DNA of 64,000 bases from Methanospirillum hungatei (GTDB lineage Archaea; Halobacteriota; Methanomicrobia; Methanomicrobiales; Methanospirillaceae): contig NZ_CP077107.1 in the NCBI RefSeq assembly GCF_019263745.1, positions 2,666,001 to 2,730,000 on the forward strand, in the 5' to 3' direction. Positions 2,667-31,769 of the stretch are shown here, piece after piece. Position 1 is the stretch's first letter, and each line of letters begins with the position of its first letter. Both the position numbers and the translations under genes were made by a program. A model generated the notes under the pieces. It ran no database searches. It had not been told where the DNA came from and saw nothing but the letters and a program-made list of their open reading frames with translations.

Positions 2667-3450
2667 TTTGGATCTCCTCTCTTCCTCTCTGTATGAATAA
2701 CAGGTATACCATGAGTATATCTCCTGCATATTGATAATAGATTGCCATGCTGTCAGTCATCTCTTTTCGATAAGAGTCCACGCTGTGCTGGAACCGGGGG
2801 ATTTGAATGATAGGGATGGGTGGATTGCTCCAGCCACCCGGTATCTCTGTGCCCTGGAACAGAATTGCCTTTCCCGTGACGGGATGGTCCCGAGGACTGA
2901 CCGGTCCGTGAAATATATGAATCTCTCCGAACCTTATCTACGGTCATCTTGTTTATGGATCCGGTGAAGCAGCCCCTGATTCTGGGTGATTTCAAGTTCC
3001 ATCATAGTTTTCTTTAAACATATGAGTCCTGTTCGATCAGGTTAAAATTTGGTTTGTAATCCGGATAACGACGATGGATACATTGTTCTTTTAGAGGGGA
3101 ACAGTTTTTCACACGGTCATTGAGATGGCTGAAGGGAAGGGACATGAAACGGACCGGCTTAAAACCCTCATTGTCTTTTACCTCATTAAGAATATATGGT
3201 TTATTTTGGAAAATTAATTAAAAACGCCCATGAGGCTTTGCCTCATGCTTAACTCATGAAAACCGAATATACATAGTCCATTTGCAATTTTACATAGGTT
3301 TTCATGGAATATAATTGCTAAAGCGGGACATCCTAATCAAGCACCAGATCCTCAAGTTTTATGATTTATCAAATAATTATTTTATGGGGGTATTTTTAAG
3401 AACCGTAAGGATTTTCATAGGAACTATTCGTTTTCTCATCTCATTTCTCT
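2667..3450. other. Gene-poor stretch with decayed coding remains
   Basis: Some 780 bases without a convincing gene. The minus strand of 2750-2990 is open in overlapping frames with protein-like composition (for example PVSPRDHPVTGKAILFQG in one frame), which suggests an old coding remnant that I cannot assign. A perfect hairpin lies at 3229-3247. Nothing else was recognised. Confidence 0.35.
3229..3247. other. Perfect short hairpin
   Basis: CATGAGGC, three T, then GCCTCATG: an 8-base stem with a 3-base loop. It stands in AT-rich DNA with no adjacent complete gene. It could be a transcript-end structure or a remnant of a mobile-element end; nothing decides between these. Confidence 0.45.
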
Positions 3451-3864
3451 TCAATACTTCTGCTTCTCCGGAATTACTCCCCTGCCCCCTCCTTTCGGAT
3501 CTGCCATGTCTCCGGAATACCGGGGGATGTTATGGATATGCAGGTGCATTACCGTCTTTCCTGCCGGTATACCGTCGTTTATCCCGATATTATACCCGTC
3601 CGGAGAATAATTCCAGTCCAGAAAACCTTTTGCATCCCGGACTAGCTCCTAGAGAGCAGTAATCTCTTCTTCTGTTGCATGAAAGATAGAGGAGATGTGC
3701 CGTTTTGGGATTATGAGCAGGTGGCGGGGGGAGACTGGATACGTGTCATACCTGGCATAAGCATATTCGTTGTCAAGAATGATGTCATCCGGTCCGGGAG
3801 TGCAGAAGATACAGGTTACGGGACCAATTGGGATTTCCTCATGAGCAAACAGGCGAAAAGCCAA
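3451..3864 (-). pseudogene. HIT-family protein with in-frame amber codon
   Basis: This is the most complete of the four HIT copies. The N-terminal part has CIFCTPGPDDIILDNEYAYA, then HLLIIPKRHISS, as in HIT-family nucleotide hydrolases. After EEEITAL an in-frame TAG at 3649-3651 interrupts the gene. The same frame continues with ELVRDAKGFLDWN, SPDGYNIGINDG, the histidine triad HLHIHNIPR and the terminal GVIPEKQKY, stopping at a TGA at 3451-3453. Without the amber codon the product would be 137 residues, normal for the family. Pyrrolysine readthrough is formally possible in methanogens, but no pyl genes are visible here and this site does not resemble the known methylamine methyltransferase contexts. 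A nonsense mutation is the simpler reading. Confidence 0.75.
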
Positions 3865-10000: not shown

Positions 10001-10187
10001 TCAGGCTCTTCCTGGTGTTCTGCCTCTCCATTCGATGAAACAGACCGACCGATCCCTGGGACGATGTCATCTGTGTAAGCTTCATCCAATTACCTGGTTT
10101 GATGAAGATACTAAGATAGGTCTGTGTGAACGGTGTTATCATCGTGAACGGTTCAGTAACCGGAACAACATTGAGGGGACGGTATAA
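7032..10187 (+). CDS. Primase-polymerase/helicase-like replication protein
   Basis: A 1,051-residue multidomain protein. Residues about 15-230 resemble an archaeo-eukaryotic primase/PrimPol domain, with WLPIDIDP (metal-binding acidic pair, about residues 96-103), HADSGNGAHLLY (about 142) and IWKLYGTRSRKGD (about 193). A Zn-type CHHSSCGG lies near 324. A P-loop ATPase follows, with Walker A GESGKGKS (about 457) and Walker B SVICLDDVS (about 499), then a winged-helix-like segment (LLVNAIRSTGKTEFTVKELQ). The C-terminal 110 residues carry two Cys clusters (CDCCGRKG...CERC and CHLCKLH...CERCYHRERF), likely zinc ribbons. Such fusions start replication of plasmids and viruses. The gene overlaps both neighbours (4 and 1 bases). 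The linker at about 810-920 is unusually rich in Met-His and Cys and coincides with clustered ATGCA motifs. Confidence 0.8.
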   Translation: MKPEESIRMALSLLFQEGSVVELRALGDRTHYGYYTDHDKLARDAAILDTTPGISGIYITLNRVNPVLLSRCANRIKKAGQKEPQTADGDIIRRSWLPIDIDPRRPAGISSSDEEHTAALKKAAVIKAYLTEMGWPDPIHADSGNGAHLLYQIDLPADQENTLLIRDCLKTLDQIFSDDQSAIDTAVANPARIWKLYGTRSRKGDHTIERPHRISHIITHPDSIEPVSVPCLMALASLCMEPDQVEKPGISRSGTPGLSEPSRQSGISGVIDLAEWLTRHGLSYSEKPYHAGRLFVFDECPFSSAHKDGAYAIQFANGGIFAGCHHSSCGGNSQRWHELRERFDGSGKERRYEERIKQGIKKRARAKAERDGMNLQQDGDPAIPGMEPFDLGSGDEKDQDIRDETLRILKTGDPIRYILDTFALAHEGDEIVAQCLLMSLASRAVINSKGLHVLVTGESGKGKSHAFESMMDLIPQEYCLGGRLTDKALFYQNNLRKGSVICLDDVSLSFSLQETLKGVTTSFKKPFIYRTLDKDRNSLTKVIPERCLWWIAKKEGTGDDQVWNRMLTVWIDDSQIQDDLVLARELDEAARPASPCVTISREMRICRALWDHLASVSVRIPFARRIRFTNSKNRRNSSMLLDLVRSIALLFQYQRERIEIGTIIEVQAEIQDFEKAREIYLLLNGDCGGQMTKMTRTEQLLVNAIRSTGKTEFTVKELQKLISRSQSTVSRLLSGNPSREDHAGLLEKCPPLSFYDRSEPREDGGYQRVRVYSWDYDLDEIWSAGVSCWLDESDKNNSHSGHDDDPDGAMHLCTPMHEQCTPKCIDSVSGNESVSDNLNEMADSPSVMHTPARAYRESLGEKTSLYVPENCAYTIPKSIIFSDLPEKVGDPLIKSMHEGVHNQCIDVHCMHRSEVVPAEIGKKEKKFGIMDINPNMFHLSERMADQVCDCCGRKGVHYREKGGGTTSGQKRRMICERCYSKAVSREVMTFQALPGVLPLHSMKQTDRSLGRCHLCKLHPITWFDEDTKIGLCERCYHRERFSNRNNIEGTV
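9460..9778. repeat. Cluster of ATGCA/TGCAT motifs inside the primase gene
   Basis: About a dozen ATGCA or TGCAT pentamers occur in 320 bases, in two tight groups (about 9460-9506 and 9717-9773) with a few between. Many are the palindrome ATGCAT. They encode the odd Met-His/Cys-rich linker of the replication protein (MHLCTPMHEQCTPKC; SMHEGVHNQCIDVHCMH). Fewer than one would be expected by chance. This fits an iteron-like initiator binding region embedded in the initiator gene, but it could instead reflect selection for metal-binding residues. Confidence 0.55.
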
Positions 10188-10504
10188 TGGGATTTACGGT
10201 TACTGCAATCCGTGAGGCTCCCCTGGTCAGGTACGAAAAGGTTGGACGGCTCATTCCCGGAGATACTGATGTAATCCGGATGATGCTGGACGGGACCGGA
10301 GAGATCGGGGTGATACCGGTGACAGATCTGCTGCTCCTGTTTGGAGGGATTGCTCCGGATGGTGTTGCGATGTCAGAGTCCGGAAATCGAGTTTTTTTGA
10401 CCAGGCCGATGGGACAGGAGTATGTGGTTTTGACCAGGCAGGTCAGGGGGATGATCCGGGACTGGCCGAAGAAGAAGGCTGCTTTGTTTGTCTTAAAAAA
10501 ATAG
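10187..10504 (+). CDS. Hypothetical protein ending the replication operon
   Basis: A 105-residue protein whose ATG shares one base with the primase stop codon (TAATG). It contains LIPGDTDVIRMMLDGTGEIG and DLLLLFGGIAPDGVAMSES, and a basic C-terminus (RDWPKKKAALFVLKK). No family is recognised; size and operon position suggest an accessory replication or copy-control protein. About 170 bases of it (10225-10396) recur in antisense to a DUF6155-like gene at 11001-11171 with few differences, so this gene has taken part in a local rearrangement. Confidence 0.6.
   Translation: MGFTVTAIREAPLVRYEKVGRLIPGDTDVIRMMLDGTGEIGVIPVTDLLLLFGGIAPDGVAMSESGNRVFLTRPMGQEYVVLTRQVRGMIRDWPKKKAALFVLKK
10225..10396 (+). 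repeat. 172-base repeat, copy 1 (inside last operon gene)
   Basis: This part of the terminal operon gene is repeated at 11001-11171 in the same orientation with only about ten mismatches. Most differences lie in the first 40 bases. Confidence 0.85.
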
Positions 10505-10707: not shown

Positions 10708-10934
10708 CAAAGCCCGATCTTTTTCGCCATCTGTTCTTCAGTAGTAAAGACTCCCCTGTTAAATTCTTCAATCCCTTTTTCTATCTCTGCTGCTGTCTCT
10801 TCATCGATATAATCATCATCTTCCAGGACTTCCAGGGCACGAGAGATAACATCTATCGGAGTTTCTTCAGGCCTTATTTTCAGGTTTATGATCTTTTCCA
10901 TGAGTGGAGATGGAATTTCTATTGCTTCACTCAT
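10707..10934 (-). CDS. RelB-type antitoxin (partner toxin deleted)
   Basis: A 75-residue acidic protein beginning MSEAIEIPSPLMEKIINL, with PEETPIDVISRALEVLED and EEQMAKKIGL at the end. It is paralogous to the antitoxin at 4001-4228 and the fragment at 1227. Its stop overlaps the first codon of the toxin remnant by the usual ATGA arrangement. It appears intact and may still be expressed as an orphan antitoxin. Confidence 0.75.
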   Translation of the reverse strand: MSEAIEIPSPLMEKIINLKIRPEETPIDVISRALEVLEDDDYIDEETAAEIEKGIEEFNRGVFTTEEQMAKKIGL

Positions 10935-10943
10935 ACTATTGTA

Positions 10944-11411
10944 TCATCCTTCAGGATTCATCAAGTTTTCATTTCCTCTCACCTCAATTATCCATAGATT
11001 GGTCAGGTATGAGAGGGTTGTATGGTTCATTCCCGGAGATACTGATGTCATCCGGATGATGCTGGACGGGACCGGAGAGATCGGGGTGATACCGGTGACA
11101 GATCTGTTGCTCCTGTTTGGAGGGATTGCTCCGGATGGTGTTGCGATGTCAGAGTCCGGAAATCGAGTTTTCATCGGCTCAATTTTGACTTTTCCAAACC
11201 CCCGTTCAGGAAAGAACTCATGTCTGATTTTTTTGGCTGCATTCTCATGAAGAGTGGCATATGCTGCTTCCCCACCCACTCTTCCCTGCAAAAAATCCTT
11301 ATTCACCTTATTCAGAGCATAGAGGTCATGAATGAGAGATATGAGAGAATCTGTATCCATTCCGGTTAACTCTGTTTTAATCGTTCGCCAGGATACTTTC
11401 GATGGACTCAT
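10944..11411 (-). pseudogene. DUF6155-like gene, 5' third fused to foreign sequence
   Basis: The first about 75 codons (11411 down to about 11172) match the intact gene at 31221-31769: SWRTIKTELTGMDTDSLISL, then LIHDLYALNKVNKDFLQGRV, then ENAAKKIRHEFFPERGFGK. After this the frame runs antisense through the 171-base copy of the replication-operon gene at 11001-11171 and is therefore nonsense (PSGAIPPNRSNRSVTG). The original C-terminal two thirds are gone. Clear chimeric pseudogene. Confidence 0.8.
11001..11171 (+). repeat. 172-base repeat, copy 2 (inserted in DUF6155-like gene)
   Basis: Near-identical copy of 10225-10396 placed in antisense to the DUF6155-like gene. It marks the point where sequence from the replication module replaced the rest of that gene. 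Confidence 0.85.
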
Positions 11412-12583: not shown

Positions 12584-12795
12584 TACATCACCGGACTGGT
12601 TTTTTGCATCATATATCAAAGTGTATTATATAATTTAGTAAATGAGAATTTGTTTTTGGAGTATTGAAGGATTTCGGTATTTCAAGGGCCTTTATTATTT
12701 TACTCATATTTCCCACCTGGGCTTATGAATTAATACTTCCGTTTTCCCGGAATCACTCCCCGGACTCCCCCTTTCGGATCAGCCATGTCACCGGA
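12575..12795. repeat. Direct repeat, right copy
   Basis: Matches bases 1-245 in the same orientation: the mntA start region, the motif TTTTTGCATCAT, GGAGTATTGAAGGATTTCGG, and the HIT tail. The right end of similarity coincides with a junction to hsdR-like sequence at about 12795. Confidence 0.7.
12730..12795 (-). pseudogene. HIT tail remnant fused to hsdR remnant
   Basis: The last about 21 residues of the HIT-family protein (GDMADPKGGVRGVIPGKRKY) are joined upstream, at about 12795, to an HsdR-like sequence. This is the fourth and shortest copy of the tail in the window. Confidence 0.6.
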
Positions 12796-12988
12796 GTCCC
12801 GTTGATGAAAAGGACGATATCAGGCCTTCGGTGGTTTTTCCCTTCCTGAATGGTGAACTGGTTGACGACAAGGAATTCGTTGTTCTCCGGGTGCGACCTC
12901 ATACCCATAGAGGACCTCGTACCCAAGGTCACGAAAGATGTCAAGTGCCGTTTTTTCTACGTCAGATTCACATAATCCCTGGCTCATT
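12796..12988 (-). pseudogene. Type I restriction HsdR, N-terminal remnant
   Basis: The minus strand reads ESDVEKTALDIFRDLGYEVL and YGYEVAPGE in one frame, then NNEFLVVNQFTIQEGKNHRR and PDIVLFINGTP in another. These are two conserved parts of the N-terminal nuclease domain of HsdR (the second carries the D...E-x-K region start). About 120 residues that normally separate them are missing, as is everything after FINGTP. Dead fragment; it may derive from the same type I system as the hsdM gene at 17865-19463. Confidence 0.65.
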
Positions 12989-13006: not shown

Positions 13007-13538
13007 TTACTGATGATTCTCTTCCAATGCTTTTTTCCCGACCGGAGTGATCCGGTACCGTTGATGCTGGCTTCGTGGTTTGTCCGGGATGGTCAGTTCA
13101 ATAAGTCCATCCTGGATGAGAGGGAGGAGGACATTTTTCCTAAATTTCGTCCGGTCAGTTCTTCCCATATCGGCCATTAATTCTACCAAAGTACTCTCTC
13201 TGGTAAGATTTTTCAGGAGGTCCAACTTCTCCTCACTTAGTGCCCACTTAGTGCCTTCTTAGTGCCCACTTGGTGCCGGTCATCTTCAGGGGTCTGGATA
13301 GGTGTGAAGGTTACGGTGAAAAATCCGTCGGCATCAAATACTGGCTCCGGACATCCGGATTCCCGTGCCCCTTCCCGCATCCGCTCGATTCCGGTCCCGG
13401 CTTTCTCGATAAAACCTATCCGGTGATAGAGGTCAGCTATGATTGGGTTTCTCCGAACGCTCTTATGCCCAAGATCAGCCGGTTGCATCCCTGGAGGAAG
13501 GCCACCCGGACTGATTATCTCTTCTCTGCAAAATTACT
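13007..13538 (-). pseudogene. AlbA_2/ATPase-type regulator, C-terminal remnant
   Basis: The upstream part (from about 13538) reads EIISPGGLPPGMQPADLGHK, then SVRRNPIIADLYHRIGFIEK and AGTGIERMREGARESGCPEP, the HATPase_c_4-like module of AlbA_2 regulators. The downstream part reads DLLKNLTRESTLVELMADMG, then RTKFRKNVLLPLIQDGLIEL, a winged-helix terminal domain. The two parts are out of frame: four tandem 11-base units at 13233-13276 lie at the join. Removing one unit would restore a continuous frame. The gene also lacks its whole N-terminal half, so it is treated as a remnant. Confidence 0.7.
13233..13276. repeat. Four tandem 11-base units
   Basis: Units read TCACTTAGTGC, CCACTTAGTGC, CTTCTTAGTGC and CCACTTGGTGC. 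Unit length is not a multiple of three, so each gain or loss changes the reading frame of the gene that spans it. With three units the frame from about 13538 to 13007 would be open; with four, as here, it ends at a TAA. Confidence 0.85.
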
Positions 13539-14556: not shown

Positions 14557-15741
14557 TCATCGTTCAAAATTTTCCAACCATTTAATTAAATCATCTTTAT
14601 TCATATTATTTCGTTTCAATACATCAACGATGTCTCCACCAGAGATTAACAAAACAGGATGACCATCCTCTTTAATTTCCAAATATGCTTGACGATCTAC
14701 AAAACTGGTCGTCACTAAAATTCCAAATTGCCGATATCTTAATCGGGATATAAGACGGGATGTTTGTTTGATTCCTATAGAATTATCATAATTGTAACAT
14801 TTAGCTTCTAAAGCACATTCAACAAATAATTTACCGCGTTCATGACCAATAAGATATTTTCCGATAGCATCTCTCCCTCCATCACGCCAGGGTCGAGTAA
14901 GGTCAAATTCAAAAAAATGATTATCAATCATCTTTGCTAGTTCTACTGCGAATGCTTCAAATTTATAGGGATTATCCTTGAAGTAATCATATATCGTAAA
15001 GAGAAGTTCACGTCCGTAATCATCAGAAGGGAGCTGGTCACTCTTTGATGGAATTTTAATTTTCGGAGCATGAAGAGGTTTAATTCCTTGTAAACCTTCA
15101 TTGATGAATTTTTTCCAAACATCAGGTTCGAAAATTTTCTCTTCGCCGGTTTCATTTTTTAAAGCCTGAAGCCATTCTTTTGGAATCGGTTCATCACTCG
15201 AATCAAGAATGGTAAAGTATGCTTCGTAATTCTGAAATCTTGTATTCTCTTTTGTTCTCCAGATTGCCACCAGAGCGTTATCAGGAGGGAAATGTTTTGA
15301 ACCGGGAGCAGCAAGGCCCCTGAATCGAACACTTCTTCCTTCTCCAACCTTTTCGAGAATAAAAAACGGAGGAATATTTCTTCGTTCATCTGGAGTGGCT
15401 AAAAGAAGGTTGAAGGTATCACGGAGTAAAGCATTTCCACCTTTCGGTGTTTCATGTAGAGGGTATCCCGGTTTGCGATTATCTCCATAATAGCGAAACA
15501 TTCCTGTTTCAATATCTAGATAGTCTGGCCATTCTATTTCTTTACCACTCGTATAAAGAACAACATATGCTGGTTTTCTGGAGTTGTTCTTATAAGAAAT
15601 CCTAAATCCTCCCTGATTTCCAACACCGGGAAACATTTTTGAGATTGGATCATCTCCAGCATGGTTCTGATCACCTCCTTCATAAATCGCGTCGATAATT
15701 AACGGCGATGAAGATATTTCTGAAAAGAAGAATCTACGCAT
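14557..15741 (-). CDS. Mrr/AspBHI-like modification-dependent restriction nuclease
   Basis: A 394-residue protein. The N-terminal 200 residues (ISYKNNSRKPAYVVLYTSGK, HETPKGGNALLRDTF, RSVRFRGLAAPG, ALVAIWRTKENTRFQNYEAY) resemble the DNA-recognition half of AspBHI-type enzymes, which bind 5-methyl- or hydroxymethyl-cytosine. The C-terminal part (about 255-390) is an Mrr-type PD-(D/E)XK domain: KFEAFAVELAKMI, RDGGRDAIGKYLIG, VECALEAKCY (the E-x-K), then QFGILVTTSFVDRQAY and PVLLISGGDIVDVL. This points to a type IV enzyme cutting modified DNA. It is divergent from an HNH nuclease gene 75 bases away. Confidence 0.75.
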   Translation of the reverse strand: MRRFFFSEISSSPLIIDAIYEGGDQNHAGDDPISKMFPGVGNQGGFRISYKNNSRKPAYVVLYTSGKEIEWPDYLDIETGMFRYYGDNRKPGYPLHETPKGGNALLRDTFNLLLATPDERRNIPPFFILEKVGEGRSVRFRGLAAPGSKHFPPDNALVAIWRTKENTRFQNYEAYFTILDSSDEPIPKEWLQALKNETGEEKIFEPDVWKKFINEGLQGIKPLHAPKIKIPSKSDQLPSDDYGRELLFTIYDYFKDNPYKFEAFAVELAKMIDNHFFEFDLTRPWRDGGRDAIGKYLIGHERGKLFVECALEAKCYNYDNSIGIKQTSRLISRLRYRQFGILVTTSFVDRQAYLEIKEDGHPVLLISGGDIVDVLKRNNMNKDDLIKWLENFER

Positions 15742-16779: not shown

Positions 16780-17868
16780 TTATTTTCTGACTGCATTCTG
16801 TGCCCTCTCCATCGCACTCTTCAGTTTCGCCTCAAGGAGTTCTCTCGGCGGCAGTTCGGTCAGATATTCAGCAACCCGTATCCCACTGTCCGAAAGCCCA
16901 AGGAGCTCCACGTGCTCATCAGACTTCCCGGCACAGAGAATCAGACCCATCGGTGACTCTTCACCAGGAACCCGTTCGTATTTGTCAAGCCACCGGAGAT
17001 ACAGTTCCATCTGACCCTTATCAGCAGCCTGAAACCTCCCCAGTTTCAGGTCAATTGCAATAAGACACCGAAGCCGGCGGTGAAAGAACAGGAGGTCAAT
17101 ATAATAATCCTCTGCGTCGATGGTGATTCTCTTCTGCCTTGCGATAAACGAGAAATCAGAACCCATTTCAAGAATGAACCGCTCGATCTCCCGGATAATA
17201 CCCGATTCAATATCCTTTTCAGAGTAGGTATCAGAAAGCCCGAGGAAATCAAGGAAATACGGATCCCGAAAGACCAGGTCCGGGCTCATCTGGTCCTCTG
17301 TCCGGAGAACTTCGAGCTCCTGCCTGGCTAACTCTTCCGGTTTTCGGGAAAGTGCGGTCCTCTCAAAGAGCATGCCCTGGATCTTTGCCTTGAGAAGACG
17401 GACACTCCATCGTTCAATCCTGCACATCTGTGTGTAAAAGTCCCGTTGCAGATCATTGTCAATCTTGATGAGTTCAACGAAATGTGACCAGCTCAATTGT
17501 CCAGACAGTGTCTGGATTATTCCGGGATCATGATAGAGCTCAGCAAACCGGACCATGGAGAATACGTTTGCCCGACTAAACCCCCTGCCATACTCATGGA
17601 GCAATTGTCCAGACAGTGTCTCGACAATTCTCTTACCATACTCACCCCTGTCTTTTTGGAGAACTTCCTGGTGAATCCGTGATCCGATATTCCAGTATAA
17701 CAGAACCGTTTCCCGGTTTACTCCATACGCAACCCGGTTTCGGGTTGATGAGATCATCTCACGGATCTCATGTAAAAGAACCGAATATTCCGTATCCTGC
17801 TGCAATCCTTCTTCCCTGATCAGGGCGGGGGCTGAACCCGGTACTGGTGGTGATGAACGTTTTCTCAT
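16780..17868 (-). CDS. PD-(D/E)XK nuclease of the YhcG/DUF1016 family
   Basis: A 362-residue protein. The N-terminal domain ([57 protein letters not shown]) is the DUF1016_N helical domain. The C-terminal part ([20 protein letters not shown], then [20 protein letters not shown] and [16 protein letters not shown]) is the YhcG-type nuclease fold with the D...(D/E)-x-K pattern (IDL...IDLKLG). Its start overlaps the hsdM stop by four bases, so the two are co-translated. YhcG-type genes are often found inside type I restriction loci, usually with hsdS and hsdR, which are missing here. Role in the complex is not established. Confidence 0.85.
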
Positions 17869-19463
17869 ATGGTGTATCCTAAACCCCCAAGATTCTTCCG
17901 AATCTCCTCGTCAAGCCGGGCACCTTCCTCCATCTGTTCAGATAACTGTTTTGTCAGCCTTTTCATCTTTTCAGCAAACGGCTCTCCGTCATCCTCTGCA
18001 TCTTCGGCCCCCACATATCTACCCGGAGTAAGAACATGCCCGTGTTTTGCTATCTCCTCAAGGGTTGCCGAAGCACAGAATCCCGGTACATCCTCATATT
18101 CCCCGGCACCGGCATCTCCCCGCCAGGTATGATACGTCCCGGCTATCTTCTCAATATCCTCATCGGTCAGTTCCCGGTGAGTCCGGTCCCTCATGACTCC
18201 CATCTTCCGGGCGTCGATAAATAGGACCTCTCCACGACGGTCCCGGAACTTTCCATTTGACCGGTTTCGACCAACAAACCAGAGACAGGCCGGAATCTGG
18301 GTAGAGTAAAAGAGCTGACCGGGAAGGGCCACCATACAGTCCACGAGGTCTGCTTCGAGGAGGTTCTTTCTGATCTCTCCTTCCCCTGACTGGTTCGATG
18401 ACATCGACCCGTTCGCAAGCACAAACCCGGCTATCCCTAAAGGAGAGAGATGGTGGATAAAATGCTGAATCCATGCATAGTTCGCATTCCCGTTCGGAGG
18501 AATCCCGTACTTCCATCGGACATCATCCCTGAGGTTCTCCCCTCCCCAGTCTTTCATATTAAATGGAGGATTAGCAAGGATGTAATCCGCTTTCAGGTTT
18601 GGATGAAGGTCCCGCCGGAAACTGTCTGCATGTTCAGCCCCAAGGTCATGGTCTATTCCCCGGATGGCAAGATTCATCTTGGCAAGTTTCCAGGTGGTCG
18701 GGTTCGATTCCTGCCCGAAGATTGAGATATCACCAATCCGGCCACCATGAGCCTCGACAAACTTCTCACTCTGGACAAACATCCCCCCCGAACCGCAACA
18801 GGGATCATACACCCGACCCTTGAAGGGGGATATCATCGAAACAAGGATCTGAACAACACATCGGGGTGTATAGAACTGACCTCCTTGTCTTCCTTCTGCA
18901 CTCGCAAACTCGGAGAGGAAATACTCGTACACTCTCCCGATGATATCCTTTGACCGGTTATCAGAGTCGCTCAGGTTGAGTGTCCCGATGAGATCGATGA
19001 GTTCTCCAAGTTTCTCCTTATCAAGACCAGGACGTGCATACTCCTTGGGCAGGATATTTTTGAGTACCGCATTATCCCGCTCGATGGCATACATTGCATC
19101 ATCGACAATCTTCCCAATCTCCGGCCGTTTCGCATTCTGTTGGATATAGGACCATCGGGCTTCTTTTGGGATCCAGAAGATATTTTCTGACCGGTACTCA
19201 TCAGGATCTTCGATTACTCCATACCTGACTTCCGGCTCGGCGATATACCAAGTGCTTTTCGGATCAGAGTATGCCTGCTCAAGTGAGGAGTGTTTCGCTT
19301 CAAATGCATCAGAGAGATATTTCAGAAAAATAAGACCAAGGACAACATGTTTGTACTCAGCCGCATCCATATTGTTCCGGAGTTTATCTGCTGCAGCCCA
19401 GAGGGTTGCTTCAAACCCGAGGTTTGCAGCCGTTGTTTCTGAAGATTTTTTTGCACGAGCCAT
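17865..19463 (-). CDS. hsdM: Type I DNA methyltransferase HsdM
   Basis: A protein of about 532 residues from [20 protein letters not shown]. The N-terminal helical domain ([20 protein letters not shown]) leads into the N6-adenine methylase core: [15 protein letters not shown], the SAM motif [13 protein letters not shown] and catalytic NPPF ([14 protein letters not shown]). Together with two HsdS subunits HsdM methylates the target adenine. No hsdS gene follows; the next gene is a YhcG-type nuclease with a 4-base overlap. A longer frame from 19622 overlaps the divergent EVE gene and lacks homology, so the internal Met was chosen. Confidence 0.92.
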
Positions 19464-19536
19464 ATTCAGAGATGAGAGAGTTAATCGTGACGGTCGATAA
19501 ACGTTTTCAAATAGTGGTACGGTCCACATTGATACT

Positions 19537-19965
19537 ATGGTAATCTGGATAGCCTCCGGGAACCGGGAGAACTGGGAGGTCGTCAAAAAACACAATATAT
19601 GGGGTGTCCCGAAACGGAGCAAGGGACTTCACTCCCGGGTGAAGGTTGGAGACACCATTCTCATCTATGCCCGGTCAGAAACCCATGCAAAAGAAGTATT
19701 TCCATCGGTTATCTTCGGAGAATACAAAGTTACCGAGCTCTTCGAAGATTCCACCCCATTATTTACCGCTCCACCGCAGATGGGAGACGAGCTTTTCCCA
19801 TTCCGGTTCAGGTTGAAACCAGTGAAGATTTTCAAGGAGCCTGTTGAGATCAAACCGCTCATTCCGGAACTCGGGTTTGTGACAAATAAGACCATGTGGT
19901 CCGGCCATTTCCGGCAGGCGATGAGGGAGATTCCGGAAGAGGACTATCGAAAGATAGTGAAATAG
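19537..19965 (+). CDS. EVE-domain protein
   Basis: A 142-residue single-domain protein: [60 protein letters not shown] and [23 protein letters not shown] domains belong to the PUA superfamily and bind modified bases; fused or adjacent to restriction genes they recognise modified cytosine or other non-canonical bases. It is divergent from hsdM with 73 bases between the starts, so the pair may share a control region. Complete and of normal length for the family. Confidence 0.85.
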
Positions 19966-25094: not shown

Positions 25095-28000
25095 ATGGCA
25101 TCACGATCATGGAAATTATCAGTTAAAATAGTATTATTGATATTATTTTTATTGGTTAGTTATTCATATGCTGATAATACTACGGTTGTTCCAACACCTG
25201 AGCCCACAGAACCTGCTGAGCCATTTGATTGGAATGATTTATTAGATGAAGAATATGAGGAACCAGTAAATTGGGAAGATATTGATATAACTGAGTCTCT
25301 TGATTGGGAAGAGCCAGTTCCCTCTTCGGAACCAGATCCGAACTTGATTCCTCCAATAGATCCTTCTTTAATTGAAAACCTTGAATATGAAATTTCTATC
25401 GCAAATGGAGCAATATTTGGTGAGGGTCTCAATTCTGATGAAGGTGTGTTAGAATTCGAATCGATATCTACGATTGAGCCACCAGAAGAGGATGTATTTG
25501 GTTCATGGGCAGATTTTGATCTCGATTTTGAGATCTCAATGGCAAATGGGGCAATATTTGGAGAGGGTTTAGAATCCGAAGAAGTTCCTCTGGTTATTGA
25601 TACATTTTCTCAGATTGAGTCGGTTGAAATAATACCAATAACCGAAGACGAAACAGAACAAGCAAATTTTGATTTTTCAATAGCAAACGGAGCAATATTC
25701 GGAGAGGGTTTAGAATCTGAAGTAGTTCCTCCGGTAATTGAATCTATTGCTCATATTGAACCGGTCACAACAACAATAATTACCGATGAAGAACAGGAAT
25801 CTTCAAATTTTGAGATATCAACAGCGAACGGAGCAATATTCGGGGAGTCTCTGTCCAGTTTGGAAGAAGAGTTGACGAATGATCTTTCTTCATTGGTTCT
25901 AATAAATGAAGAATTCATTGAGGAGAAAGATAAAGGTGGAGCCCAGGTTACAACCCCTTCTGGGTCACAGGAGATTACGGATGAAGGCGAAACCCTTGCA
26001 ACCCCTGGTTATGATGGAACGAGCGGTACAAAGCCTGGTGCTCAGGTTTTACTGCCCGAAAAAGACAAGACCGATAAGGGTGAATCTGTTTCCGAATCCA
26101 AGGTTGAACCTGAAGAAATCATCAGTCCTGAATCTATTCCAACCGTGGTTTCAACAGAAGTCCAGGAAGATGAGAAAGATAAAGGTGGAGCCCAAGTAAC
26201 AACACCTTCTGGATCCCAGGAGATAACTGATGAAGGCGAAACCCTTGCAACCCCTGGTTATGATGGAACGAGCGGTACAAAGCCCGGTGCTCAGGTTTTA
26301 CTCCCCGAAAAAGAGAAGACTGATAAGGGTGAATCCGTTTCCGAATCCAAGGTTGAACCCAAAGGAACCGTCAGTCCTGAATCTACTCCAACCGTGGTTT
26401 CAACAAAAGACCAGAAAGAGGTGAAAGATAAAGGTGGAGCCCAGGTAACAACACCTTCTGGATCTCAGGAGATAACTGATGAAGGCGAAACCCTTGCAAC
26501 ACCTGGTTATGATGGAACGAGCGGCACAAAACCTGGTGCTCAAATATTGCTCCCCGATAAAGATAAGACCGATAAGGGTGAATCCGTTTCCGAATCCAAG
26601 GTTGAACCCAAAGGAACCGTCAGTCCTGAATCTACTCCAACCGTGGTTTCAACAAAAGACCAGAAAGACGTGAAAGATAAGGGTGGAGCCCAGGTAACCA
26701 CCCCGTCTGGATCCCAGGCGATAACCGGTGAAGGTGAAACCCTTGCAACACCTGGTTATGATGGAACGAGCGGCACAAAACCTGGTGCTCAAATATTGCT
26801 CCCCGATAAAGAGAAGACCGATAAGGGTGAATCCGTTTCCGAATCCAAGGTTGAACCCAAAGGAACCGTCAGTCCTGAATCTACATATGGTTTCATTTCT
26901 GATTCCAAACTGACCGTAGAACCCACCGTTGAGGTTACCCCTGAACCAACACTGACGGTTGAACCCACTAGTGAGGTCACTCCCGAGCCAACATTGACCG
27001 TAGAACCTACAATTGAGGTTACTCCTGAACCCACCTTGACCGTAGAACCTACCTTTGAGGTTACACCAGAGCCTACACTGACGGTTGAACCCACTGTTGA
27101 GGTCACTCCTGAACCAACACTGACGGTTGAACCCACTAGTGAGGTTACTCCTGAACCCACCTTGACCGTAGAACCTACCTTTGAGGTTACACCAGAGCCT
27201 ACACTGACCGTTGAACCCACCAGTGAGGTTACCCCTGAACCTACGTTGGCCGTAGAGCCTACTGTTGAGGTCACTCCCGAGCCAACATTGACCGTAGAAC
27301 CTACAATCGAGGTTACTCCTGAACCTACATTTACGGTTGAACCCACCGTTGAGGTTACCCCTGAACCCACATTTACGGTAGAGCCTACATTTACGGTTGA
27401 ACCCACTCGTGAGGTCACTCCAGAACCCACATTTACGGTAGAGCCTACCGTTGAGGTTACCCCTGAACCTACCTTGACGGTTGAACCCACTCGTGAGATC
27501 ACTCCCGAGCCAACATTGACCATAGAACCTACAATTGAGGTCACTCCAGAACCAACACTGACGGTTGAGCCTACAATTAAGGTTACTCCCGAACCAACAT
27601 TGACCTTAGAACCCACTGTTGAGGTTACTCCTGAACCTACCTTGACGGTTGAACCGACGCTTGAGGTCACCCCCGAGCCAACACTGACCTTAGAACCCAC
27701 CTTGACGGTTGAGCCTACAATTGAGGTTACTCCTGAACCTACGTTGACCGTAGAGCCTACTGTTGGGGTCACTCCCGAGCCAACAATTACGGTAGAACCT
27801 ACAATTGAGGTTACCCCTGAACCAACACTGACAGTTGAACCCACTCGTGAGGTCACTTCAGAATCCACATTTACGGTAGAGCCTACAATTGAGGTTACCC
27901 CTGAACCAACACTGACAGTTGAACCCACTCGTGAGGTCACTTCAGAATCCACATTTACGGTAGAGCCTACCATTGAGGTTACTCCTGAACCTACATTTAC

Positions 28001-29105
28001 GGTTGAACCCACCGTTGAGGTCACTCCCGAGCCAACATTGACTGTAGAACCTACAATTGAGGTTACCCCTGAACCTACATTTACGGTTGAACCCACCGTT
28101 GAGGTCACTCCCGAGCCAACATTGACTGTAGAACCTACAATTGAGGTTACCCCTGAACCTACATTTACGGTTGAACCCACCGTTGAGGTCACTCCCGAGC
28201 CAACATTGACTGTAGAACCTACAATTGAGGTTACCCCTGAACCTACATTTACGGTTGAACCCACTCGTGAGGTTACTCCTGAACCAACACTGACCTTAGA
28301 ACCCACCATTGAGGTTACCCCTGAACCCACCTTGACGGTTGAGCCAACGCTTGAGGTTACCCCTGAACCCACCTTGACAGTTGAGCCTACAATTGAGGTT
28401 ACTCCTGAAATACAACCAATCATTACACCTAACCAGAATGAAGGATTAATCAGTAGAATAGAAGGAGAGACTCATGAAAGTGAGCCAACAGAAACAGTAT
28501 TTGGGACAATTAATCTTATGGAACAACCCGAAAATATTGAGGTTTACATAAATGGAGAACCACAGGGTGAAACCCCATTACTCATAACCGGAGTACATCC
28601 TGGAGAGTATCTGATAACCTTCGAACATGACGATGGGTATGAGGACCAGATTGTAGAGATCCCTGAAACTGGTGGTGAAATAAAACCGGAAAAAACAGAG
28701 TCTGTCTATAAAATATCTGTTCTTGCCGGAGAAAAAGAACCCTGTAAAGATTGCTGCACAATTCAGGAAGTCCATGCAAGAACATCTACCCGGGATTATT
28801 CGGAGGTCTTTAAGATCAGTACTATTGCAATGAAAACAGATGAGTCTGGCAGAATACCCTATACCTTGTATTGGAATAGCAAACCCTGGTATAAAGGAAC
28901 CTTGAAACCTGATGTAGATGAAAAGGCTGAAGGGTGTGAGAATTGTATGGTGATGGAAGATTACATCAGAGAAGTTACTCCACCTGGGACGTTTGAGCTT
29001 GTATTGGATGATGGACGGTTATGCACCTCTTCGGATAATCAGGGAAGACTTTCCTTCTTTGGGACTGAAGATATTCCCATCACCTCCAATTTGAACGAAC
29101 CATAA
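25095..29105 (+). CDS. Giant secreted repeat protein with PEGA-like domain
   Basis: A 1,336-residue protein. A signal peptide (KIVLLILFLLVSYSYA) is followed by an acidic region with four copies of a module containing 'ANGAIFGE.L' (about residues 95-260). Four copies of an 83-residue module follow (KDKGGAQVTTPSGSQEITDE, GETLATPGYDGTSGTKPGAQ), then about 35 copies of a 14-residue unit of the form EVTPEPTLTVEPT (about 608-1110), a Pro/Thr/Glu-rich stalk. Next comes a PEGA-like beta domain (GTINLMEQPENIEVYINGEP, VHPGEYLITFEHDDGYEDQI) and a C-terminal domain with Cys pairs (EPCKDCCTI; CENCMVM). It is probably an extended cell-surface or sheath protein. Confidence 0.88.
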   Translation: MASRSWKLSVKIVLLILFLLVSYSYADNTTVVPTPEPTEPAEPFDWNDLLDEEYEEPVNWEDIDITESLDWEEPVPSSEPDPNLIPPIDPSLIENLEYEISIANGAIFGEGLNSDEGVLEFESISTIEPPEEDVFGSWADFDLDFEISMANGAIFGEGLESEEVPLVIDTFSQIESVEIIPITEDETEQANFDFSIANGAIFGEGLESEVVPPVIESIAHIEPVTTTIITDEEQESSNFEISTANGAIFGESLSSLEEELTNDLSSLVLINEEFIEEKDKGGAQVTTPSGSQEITDEGETLATPGYDGTSGTKPGAQVLLPEKDKTDKGESVSESKVEPEEIISPESIPTVVSTEVQEDEKDKGGAQVTTPSGSQEITDEGETLATPGYDGTSGTKPGAQVLLPEKEKTDKGESVSESKVEPKGTVSPESTPTVVSTKDQKEVKDKGGAQVTTPSGSQEITDEGETLATPGYDGTSGTKPGAQILLPDKDKTDKGESVSESKVEPKGTVSPESTPTVVSTKDQKDVKDKGGAQVTTPSGSQAITGEGETLATPGYDGTSGTKPGAQILLPDKEKTDKGESVSESKVEPKGTVSPESTYGFISDSKLTVEPTVEVTPEPTLTVEPTSEVTPEPTLTVEPTIEVTPEPTLTVEPTFEVTPEPTLTVEPTVEVTPEPTLTVEPTSEVTPEPTLTVEPTFEVTPEPTLTVEPTSEVTPEPTLAVEPTVEVTPEPTLTVEPTIEVTPEPTFTVEPTVEVTPEPTFTVEPTFTVEPTREVTPEPTFTVEPTVEVTPEPTLTVEPTREITPEPTLTIEPTIEVTPEPTLTVEPTIKVTPEPTLTLEPTVEVTPEPTLTVEPTLEVTPEPTLTLEPTLTVEPTIEVTPEPTLTVEPTVGVTPEPTITVEPTIEVTPEPTLTVEPTREVTSESTFTVEPTIEVTPEPTLTVEPTREVTSESTFTVEPTIEVTPEPTFTVEPTVEVTPEPTLTVEPTIEVTPEPTFTVEPTVEVTPEPTLTVEPTIEVTPEPTFTVEPTVEVTPEPTLTVEPTIEVTPEPTFTVEPTREVTPEPTLTLEPTIEVTPEPTLTVEPTLEVTPEPTLTVEPTIEVTPEIQPIITPNQNEGLISRIEGETHESEPTETVFGTINLMEQPENIEVYINGEPQGETPLLITGVHPGEYLITFEHDDGYEDQIVEIPETGGEIKPEKTESVYKISVLAGEKEPCKDCCTIQEVHARTSTRDYSEVFKISTIAMKTDESGRIPYTLYWNSKPWYKGTLKPDVDEKAEGCENCMVMEDYIREVTPPGTFELVLDDGRLCTSSDNQGRLSFFGTEDIPITSNLNEP
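25927..26890 (+). repeat. Four direct repeats of about 249 bases
   Basis: Units begin AAAGATAAAGGTGGAGCCCA at about 25927, 26176, 26425 and 26674 and are nearly identical, especially units 2 to 4. They encode the 83-residue module of the surface protein. The period is a multiple of three, so copy-number change would keep the frame. Confidence 0.9.
26917..28410 (+). repeat. About 35 tandem 42-base units
   Basis: Forty-two-base units encode the 14-residue Pro/Thr/Glu stalk repeat. Two half units (18 bases) interrupt the register, and several stretches (for example 27835-27970 and 28000-28260) are block duplications of two or three units. Expected to be unstable in length. Confidence 0.92.
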
Positions 29106-31220: not shown

Positions 31221-31769
31221 CTATTCAAGAGCCTCAATGTCATCAATAAGTTCTGCTATCTCATCTTCGATACCATATCCGGCATTTGAGGCATCGAGTT
31301 TTACATCAAAAAGCCGATCTTCAATATCCAATACCTCAATTATCGCCGGGCATGTCTTCAGAATTTTATACAATTCACTCATCGCACCACTGAGTGAATC
31401 TAATTTCGCCTCATCACCACCCCCATAATGAGAGAAAAATTTCACAAACTGCTCGATAAACAGGAGAGTAAGATCAGCTGTCCCTATTGGGTCCCCGGTC
31501 GCTTTCTTATATCCGGCAATCGCCTTTTTCACCGGGGCAATTCTGGCTTTACCAAATCCCCGTTCAGGAAAGAACTCATGTCTGATCTTCTTGGCCGCAT
31601 TCTCACGAAGACTGGCATATGCTGCTTCTCCACCAATTCTCCCCTGCAGATACTCTTTGTTCTCCTTATTCAGGGCATAGAGATCATGAATGAGAGATAT
31701 CAGAGAATTTGCATCCATTCCGGCTAAACCTGTCTTAATAGTCCGCCAGGATGGTGTTGAATCGCTCAT
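31221..31769 (-). CDS. DUF6155-like protein
   Basis: A 182-residue protein: SWRTIKTGLAGMDANSLISL, LIHDLYALNKENKEYLQGRI, ENAAKKIRHEFFPERGFGKA, then a helical C-terminus ending in acidic residues (GYGIEDEIAELIDDIEALE). The N-terminal 'L..LI.DLY..N...K.YL' and the 'I..EFFP.RG.GKAR' strip fit the DUF6155 family as I remember it; function unknown. A second copy at 10944-11411 keeps only the first third. Divergent from a RelBE-type module. Confidence 0.6.
   Translation of the reverse strand: MSDSTPSWRTIKTGLAGMDANSLISLIHDLYALNKENKEYLQGRIGGEAAYASLRENAAKKIRHEFFPERGFGKARIAPVKKAIAGYKKATGDPIGTADLTLLFIEQFVKFFSHYGGGDEAKLDSLSGAMSELYKILKTCPAIIEVLDIEDRLFDVKLDASNAGYGIEDEIAELIDDIEALE

Follow-up and report, generated by a model that had tools for sequence, protein, structure and literature searches.

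An out-of-frame 11-bp repeat linker in a decayed archaeal restriction operon and apparent exchange of winged-helix tails in its protein family

We analyzed a 64,000-nt stretch of the Methanospirillum hungatei genome (contig NZ_CP077107.1, positions 2,666,001 to 2,730,000; hereafter the window), in which four 11-bp units lie between two reading frames of a former gene. We give a probability of about three in four to the following reading. The array would be the repeat linker that connects HATPase_c_4 to the winged helix (wHTH) at the C-terminus of an AlbA_2-HATPase protein; in relatives, the gene for this protein lies in a type I-like restriction operon, with hsdS on one side and hsdR on the other. 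This operon would have decayed in the window genome, leaving only the C-terminal part of the AlbA_2-HATPase gene. A slip, most likely one that copied the last GGCACTAAGTG, would have added a unit of 11 bp and shifted the winged helix into another frame. The repeat linker and the wHTH would together form a cassette that has repeatedly been exchanged between AlbA_2-HATPase scaffolds, while the linkers of working genes would change length in whole 33-bp steps with the frame kept.

The array lies between two out-of-frame parts of a truncated gene

The array occupies positions 13234-13277 of the window on the minus strand and was delimited by TRF, pattern scans and an anchored comparison with relatives. 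Its four units follow the pattern GGCACYAAGnn and are imperfect repeats; read on the minus strand from 13277 to 13234, they are GGCACCAAGTG, GGCACTAAGAA, GGCACTAAGTG and GGCACTAAGTG, units 3 and 4 being identical. TRF reports a period of 11 with 4.0 copies and 84% matches, and scores the array slightly better when it is read as 22 bp x 1.9. The array is beyond chance, with three matches to a two-unit pattern in the window versus 0 expected from 100 dinucleotide-preserving shuffles of the window. A whole-genome pattern scan found no second array of the same kind elsewhere in the 3.39-Mb genome.

On the upstream side, a 5'-truncated HATPase_c_4 frame (13237-13524, minus strand; Pfam PF13749, ORF list and JF-1 alignment) matches profile positions 33-89 only (E 9e-14) and runs into the array, where it stops at a TAA within unit 4. 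On the downstream side, the wHTH frame (13007-13225, minus strand; ORF list and Pfam) carries a complete Fic-like_C domain (PF21247, 13046-13222, E 5e-17) and is open in the other register, one unit out of frame with the HATPase. Removing one unit joins the two frames.

These results bear out the anatomy given in the original prediction, which had placed four 11-base units at the join of two out-of-frame halves of an AlbA_2/ATPase-type regulator, with a continuous frame on deletion of one unit. TRF recovers the array at this place with a Pfam domain on either side, and the window is longer than the intact JF-1 orthologue by exactly 11 bp. The 5' half of the gene, likewise predicted to be missing, is indeed lost, as homology to relatives ends near 13524 (Pfam and blastn). 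The domain assignment stood in part: HATPase_c_4 (partial) and Fic-like_C are both found by Pfam, but the SLFN_AlbA_2 domain, present in the JF-1 orthologue (E 7e-18), is absent from the window copy because the remnant is the C-terminal part of the protein.

The surrounding restriction operon has decayed

Directly downstream of the wHTH frame lies an hsdR remnant (HSDR_N, PF04313; 12790-12987, minus strand; Pfam and blastn) of about 200 bp, which is internally deleted and has lost its 3' end. Comparison with JF-1 identifies the deletion scar at 12882-12893 (minus strand): the 12-bp direct repeat CACCCGGAGAAC is present in two copies 266 bp apart in JF-1 and in one copy in the window, and the 266-bp deletion between the repeats breaks the hsdR frame. 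The upstream portion of the former operon comprises a DUF1016/PDC-S02 nuclease-like gene (16780-17868, minus strand; PADLOC) and an hsdM gene with an intact frame (17865-19622, minus strand; PADLOC MTase_I, E 2e-228, and blastn). Together (16780-19622) they have 88-91% DNA identity to the operons of JF-1 and genome G208 (blastn).

In genomes G198 (which we take to be M. hungatei JF-1), G208 and G129, the operon order is hsdM, DUF1016, hsdS, AlbA_2-HATPase-wHTH and hsdR, with extra genes interspersed in some. From the window locus hsdS is gone, and hsdM, DUF1016 and the hsdR remnant remain. A gene for a methyl-directed restriction enzyme (mREase_II; 14557-15741, minus strand; PADLOC and gene order relative to L054 and L055) occupies the place where hsdS and the AlbA_2 5' half would be expected, and an HNH gene lies in the same stretch. 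Since hsdS and the AlbA_2 5' half are gone and hsdR is a remnant, the array gene belongs to a decayed locus. A change in unit number could not restore a working gene because AlbA_2 and the first third of the HATPase are missing and hsdR is broken twice; we infer that the frameshift is not reversible to function in the window copy.

The wHTH frame compared between the window and the G202 orthologue gives a dN of 0.105 and a dS of 0.71 (dN/dS about 0.15). The frame is thus still clean and constrained, so the frameshift is probably young. The window frameshift is an ordinary slip in a pseudogene, and replication slippage is the likely cause of the extra unit.

Several other repeats were seen in the window. 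Four stretches (151-244, 848-1001, 3431-3609 and 12729-12814) are 74-78% identical to one G208 region downstream of hsdR (L055 3035-3213) and look like a dispersed repeat family. An ORF of 1336 aa (25095-29105) contains tandem 249-bp and 42-bp repeats (PEPTLTVEPTxEVT). A fragment beginning IPGDTDVIRMMLDGTGEIGVIPVTDLLLLFGG is duplicated at 10187-10504 and 10888-11411, its second copy being fused to a piece that resembles the ORF at 31221-31769.

Intact orthologues differ by whole 33-bp steps

The original prediction had proposed a search for intact homologues with the same repeat and counts of units in reads and isolates. Intact homologues carrying the repeat were found in relatives, and unit number differs between orthologues. 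The JF-1 orthologue is intact with three units; between the HATPase motif and the start of the wHTH, the only indel that separates the window from it is a net gain of 11 bp in the array. In M. hungatei isolate M59, a 4.5-kb contig carries the end of this gene, in frame and with three units, and hsdR comes next. Relative to JF-1, the anchored length is 0 in M59, 0 in JF-1 itself, +33 in G208 and +66 in G129, all in frame, and +11 in the window and +44 in G202, both out of frame. This corresponds to 3, 3, 6 and 9 units in frame versus 4 (window) and 7 (G202) out of frame. Orthologues in intact operons therefore carry 3, 6 or 9 units, that is, 33-bp steps, and the only other out-of-frame orthologue, G202, is itself a pseudogene, internally deleted and broken in frame at several points. 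A scan of genome contigs with the window protein returned a single relative, and tblastn against plasmids and phages in search of a strain series returned a few distant relatives and no close series.

The G129 array repeats best at 33 bp. In-frame expansion needs a CAA-type unit (CACCAAG) at every third position, since CACTAAG yields TAA in that phase. Unit 4 of the window is a T-type copy, the same as unit 3, which in sequence terms fits the duplication of a single unit rather than part of a frame-keeping triplet.

Arrays in N-terminally intact genes are all in frame

We surveyed 167 distinct wHTH domains of the window kind in the phylum, with one genome per species. For 85 of these the linker repeats best with a period of 12 bp, and for 30 with a period of 11 bp. 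Where the gene has kept its N-terminus, all 21 arrays of the 11-bp class are in frame and 0 broken (95% upper bound about 13%), whereas 4 of the 9 in truncated copies are broken (p = 0.005). An enlarged set of 23 listed arrays gave the same result; one of these, L201, owed its score to masked bases alone and was removed as an artefact. Truncated copies with 12-bp linkers are also broken in 6 of 22 cases, though 12-bp slippage cannot break the frame, and the two classes do not differ significantly (4/9 vs 6/22, p = 0.42). Broken frames thus track gene decay and not the 11-bp unit. Loci L017 and L019-L021, from several species of a single genus, all have about four units, and the three Methanospirillum relatives L058, L059 and L061 all have about 3.5. 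This constancy argues against frequent switching; with one genome per species in the survey, rare switching in intact operons may still occur.

The original prediction had read the array as slipped-strand phase variation, in which gain and loss of units turns the regulator on and off. The geometry is right: the repeat unit is not a multiple of 3 and lies inside an ORF, one unit toggles the frame, unit number differs between the orthologues of different species, and restriction-modification (R-M) genes are a common site of such switches, with about 10% of type I systems carrying simple sequence repeats (SSRs; as cited in PMC7394358). An operating switch, however, is unsupported and appears quite improbable. 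The window gene is truncated in a broken operon where a phase-variable gene would be otherwise intact, and no OFF allele occurs among the 21 N-intact arrays. The short arrays alike across species of one genus and at three loci of another suggest slow slippage, and among truncated genes broken frames are not significantly commoner with 11-bp than with 12-bp linkers. As judged from its sequence, the window copy is not a working switch. In the literature, much of which is subscription content outside our search, phase variation was not linked to AlbA_2 proteins, methanogens or 11-bp repeats. Two further readings concern the extra unit itself. The count of four rests on a single consensus, so that the true count might be three; such an assembly or sequencing artefact is very unlikely, as the 44-bp array is unique in a one-contig genome and short enough for any read to span, and the gene is broken in other ways too. 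The cell might also frameshift by programme, or translate each frame into a protein of its own, which would accord with both frames being open and with a TTG in the wHTH frame soon after the array. We consider this the least credible reading: relatives encode a single unbroken protein, inspection by eye showed no slippery signal, and the upstream part lacks a start region. For an out-of-frame tandem repeat in one genome, gene intactness and orthologue counts should be checked before phase variation is called.

Linker and winged helix appear to form a mobile C-terminal cassette

The cassette analysis covered the 98-99 genes with an ORF spanning the domains, a requirement by which broken genes were left out. 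Of 117 pairs whose HATPases are at least 80% identical in DNA, 29 have a wHTH identity below 45%; similar scaffolds thus bear different wHTH types. We inspected six swapped pairs, five of which align in DNA at 79-92% over 0.8-1.2 kb, with the alignment ending at the end of the HATPase. Past this point their linkers and tails differ, with TEQV-, RPEL/KSRL- and SPTQ-type repeats.

Linker kind follows wHTH type. In W3, the type of the window, all 17 genes have an 11-bp linker, and they span four HATPase clusters; types W1 and W2 never have one among the spanning genes. One HATPase cluster, H8, bears all four main tail types, and on this scaffold an 11-bp linker accompanies W3 in 7 of 7 genes versus 0 of 28 for the others (p = 1.5e-7). 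A tree of the N-terminal part requires at least 21 changes of wHTH type, 10 of them within H8, counts that are rough given short tree searches and a linkage threshold. In L012 and L018, two successive units of 11-bp array and wHTH stand at the C-terminus. These patterns suggest that the wHTH travels with its repeat linker as one cassette at the C-terminus, with recombination at the linker as the probable route of exchange.

Alternatively, the linker may be neutral and of low complexity, and the wHTH differences may reflect fast divergence with no cassette exchange. Between close orthologues dN is indeed 0.04-0.09 in the wHTH versus 0.006-0.013 in the HATPase, and the window trees, taken by themselves, are compatible with a common history. 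We nevertheless regard this as unlikely: scaffolds 83-92% identical in DNA bear wHTHs that are about 28-38% identical and quite different repeat linkers, the same combination of wHTH and linker type recurs on other scaffolds, and wHTH identity falls below 45% in 29 of the 117 pairs with closely matched HATPases.

For the family, closely similar scaffolds joined to very different exchanged domains, with the breakpoint at the repeat, were found; for the window gene the same evidence is only suggestive. Between the window and JF-1, DNA identity is 85% in the HATPase, 67% in the wHTH and 91% at the start of hsdR; against the JF-1 group the values are 85-88%, 66-67% and about 90%. The wHTH of the window is 82% identical to that of G202. 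Informative sites switch sides at the array (12G:39J vs 63G:33J, p = 2e-6, with the non-homologous 3' stretch of G202 excluded), although rate differences can contribute. The informative-site scan places its best breakpoint at the 3' end, a position without meaning since homology to G202 is lost in that stretch. The tree tests do not settle the matter, with AU p = 0.44 for the HATPase tree when window and G202 are held together and AU p = 0.056 for the wHTH tree under the opposite constraint. The window gene looks mosaic in these comparisons, with a junction at the array, and faster wHTH evolution would explain part of the contrast in identity.

An 11-bp linker of CAA-type units encodes one and the same cyclic peptide of 11 residues whichever frame is read. 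A more speculative extension, which we hold only tentatively, is that the C-terminal wHTH modules of archaeal restriction and BREX AlbA_2-HATPase proteins are exchanged via tandem-repeat linkers that serve as recombination joints. The 11-bp linkers of CAA-type units would then tolerate joining in any frame inside the linker and at the same time switch the wHTH frame slowly. Of more interest than the frameshift is the pattern across a large archaeal defence-locus family, where AlbA_2-HATPase bodies that resemble one another end in different winged-helix tails and each tail has a repeat linker of its own kind. We predict from this arrangement that the tail may determine what the protein senses or binds; the pattern merits a dedicated study.

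Comparison with known systems and distant relatives

In mechanism, three known systems come closest: SSR phase variation of R-M genes, domain movement in HsdS and the EcoR124 linker repeats. Slipped-strand phase-variable genes with SSRs are known in type I and type III R-M systems (PMC7394358). Like these, the window array is a tandem repeat inside an ORF of an R-M locus where a unit change shifts the frame; unlike these, it lies in an accessory AlbA_2-HATPase gene, has few and imperfect 11-bp units in a truncated copy, and has no OFF allele in N-intact relatives. In HsdS, target recognition domains move via flanking repeats (DOMO; PMC3077401). The AlbA_2-HATPase family similarly joins different recognition-type domains to similar scaffolds at repeats and contains duplicated domain copies (array-wHTH-array-wHTH in L012 and L018), but the exchanged part is the C-terminal wHTH, joined by an 11-bp or 12-bp array, and recombination here is inferred and not watched. 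By analogy, the tail exchange may be said to resemble recognition-domain exchange in HsdS.

The HsdS linker of EcoR124I/II, which lies between DNA-binding domains, has two or three 12-bp TAEL repeats (PMC3874165). The 12-bp linkers of the AlbA_2 family likewise lie between domains and change copy number with the frame kept, whereas 11-bp linkers break the frame unless three units change together. TrlG of Photorhabdus combines AlbA_2 with HATPase_c_4 and is encoded with trlF in the trlG operon, implicated in temperature restriction (PMC7554251). The AlbA_2-HATPase-wHTH family shares these two N-terminal domains but is found at a different locus. Plasmid relatives beside TrlF-family genes are about 30-32% identical to the JF-1 protein. 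On an Azotobacter salinestris plasmid (NZ_CP045303.1, L204), an AlbA_2-HATPase-wHTH protein is encoded between brxC and pglX of a BREX locus.

Longer arrays were also observed. L095 (G090:C2:107800-111800) has 14 nearly perfect 11-bp units (GACCAAGATGG) at 1555-1705 before a window-type wHTH, with all three frames of the array open and no HATPase upstream. Downstream of related HATPase genes, L108 has 17 units of TCATTCATCTC (1034-1225) and L111 has 7 units of TACCCGATTAG (829-904), in genomes G081 and G121.

In viral contigs, a protein search found two relatives of the window protein, and a pattern scan found 23 stretches with 11-bp arrays, most of them outside recognizable genes and only one (L214) clearly in the AlbA_2-HATPase-wHTH family. 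Five IMG/VR contigs (L225, L226, L210, L213 and L207) have GGGACTAAGCA-type 11-bp arrays with no recognizable gene. Two of them, L225 and L226, share the same flanks with 5 versus 4 units, a natural difference in copy number.
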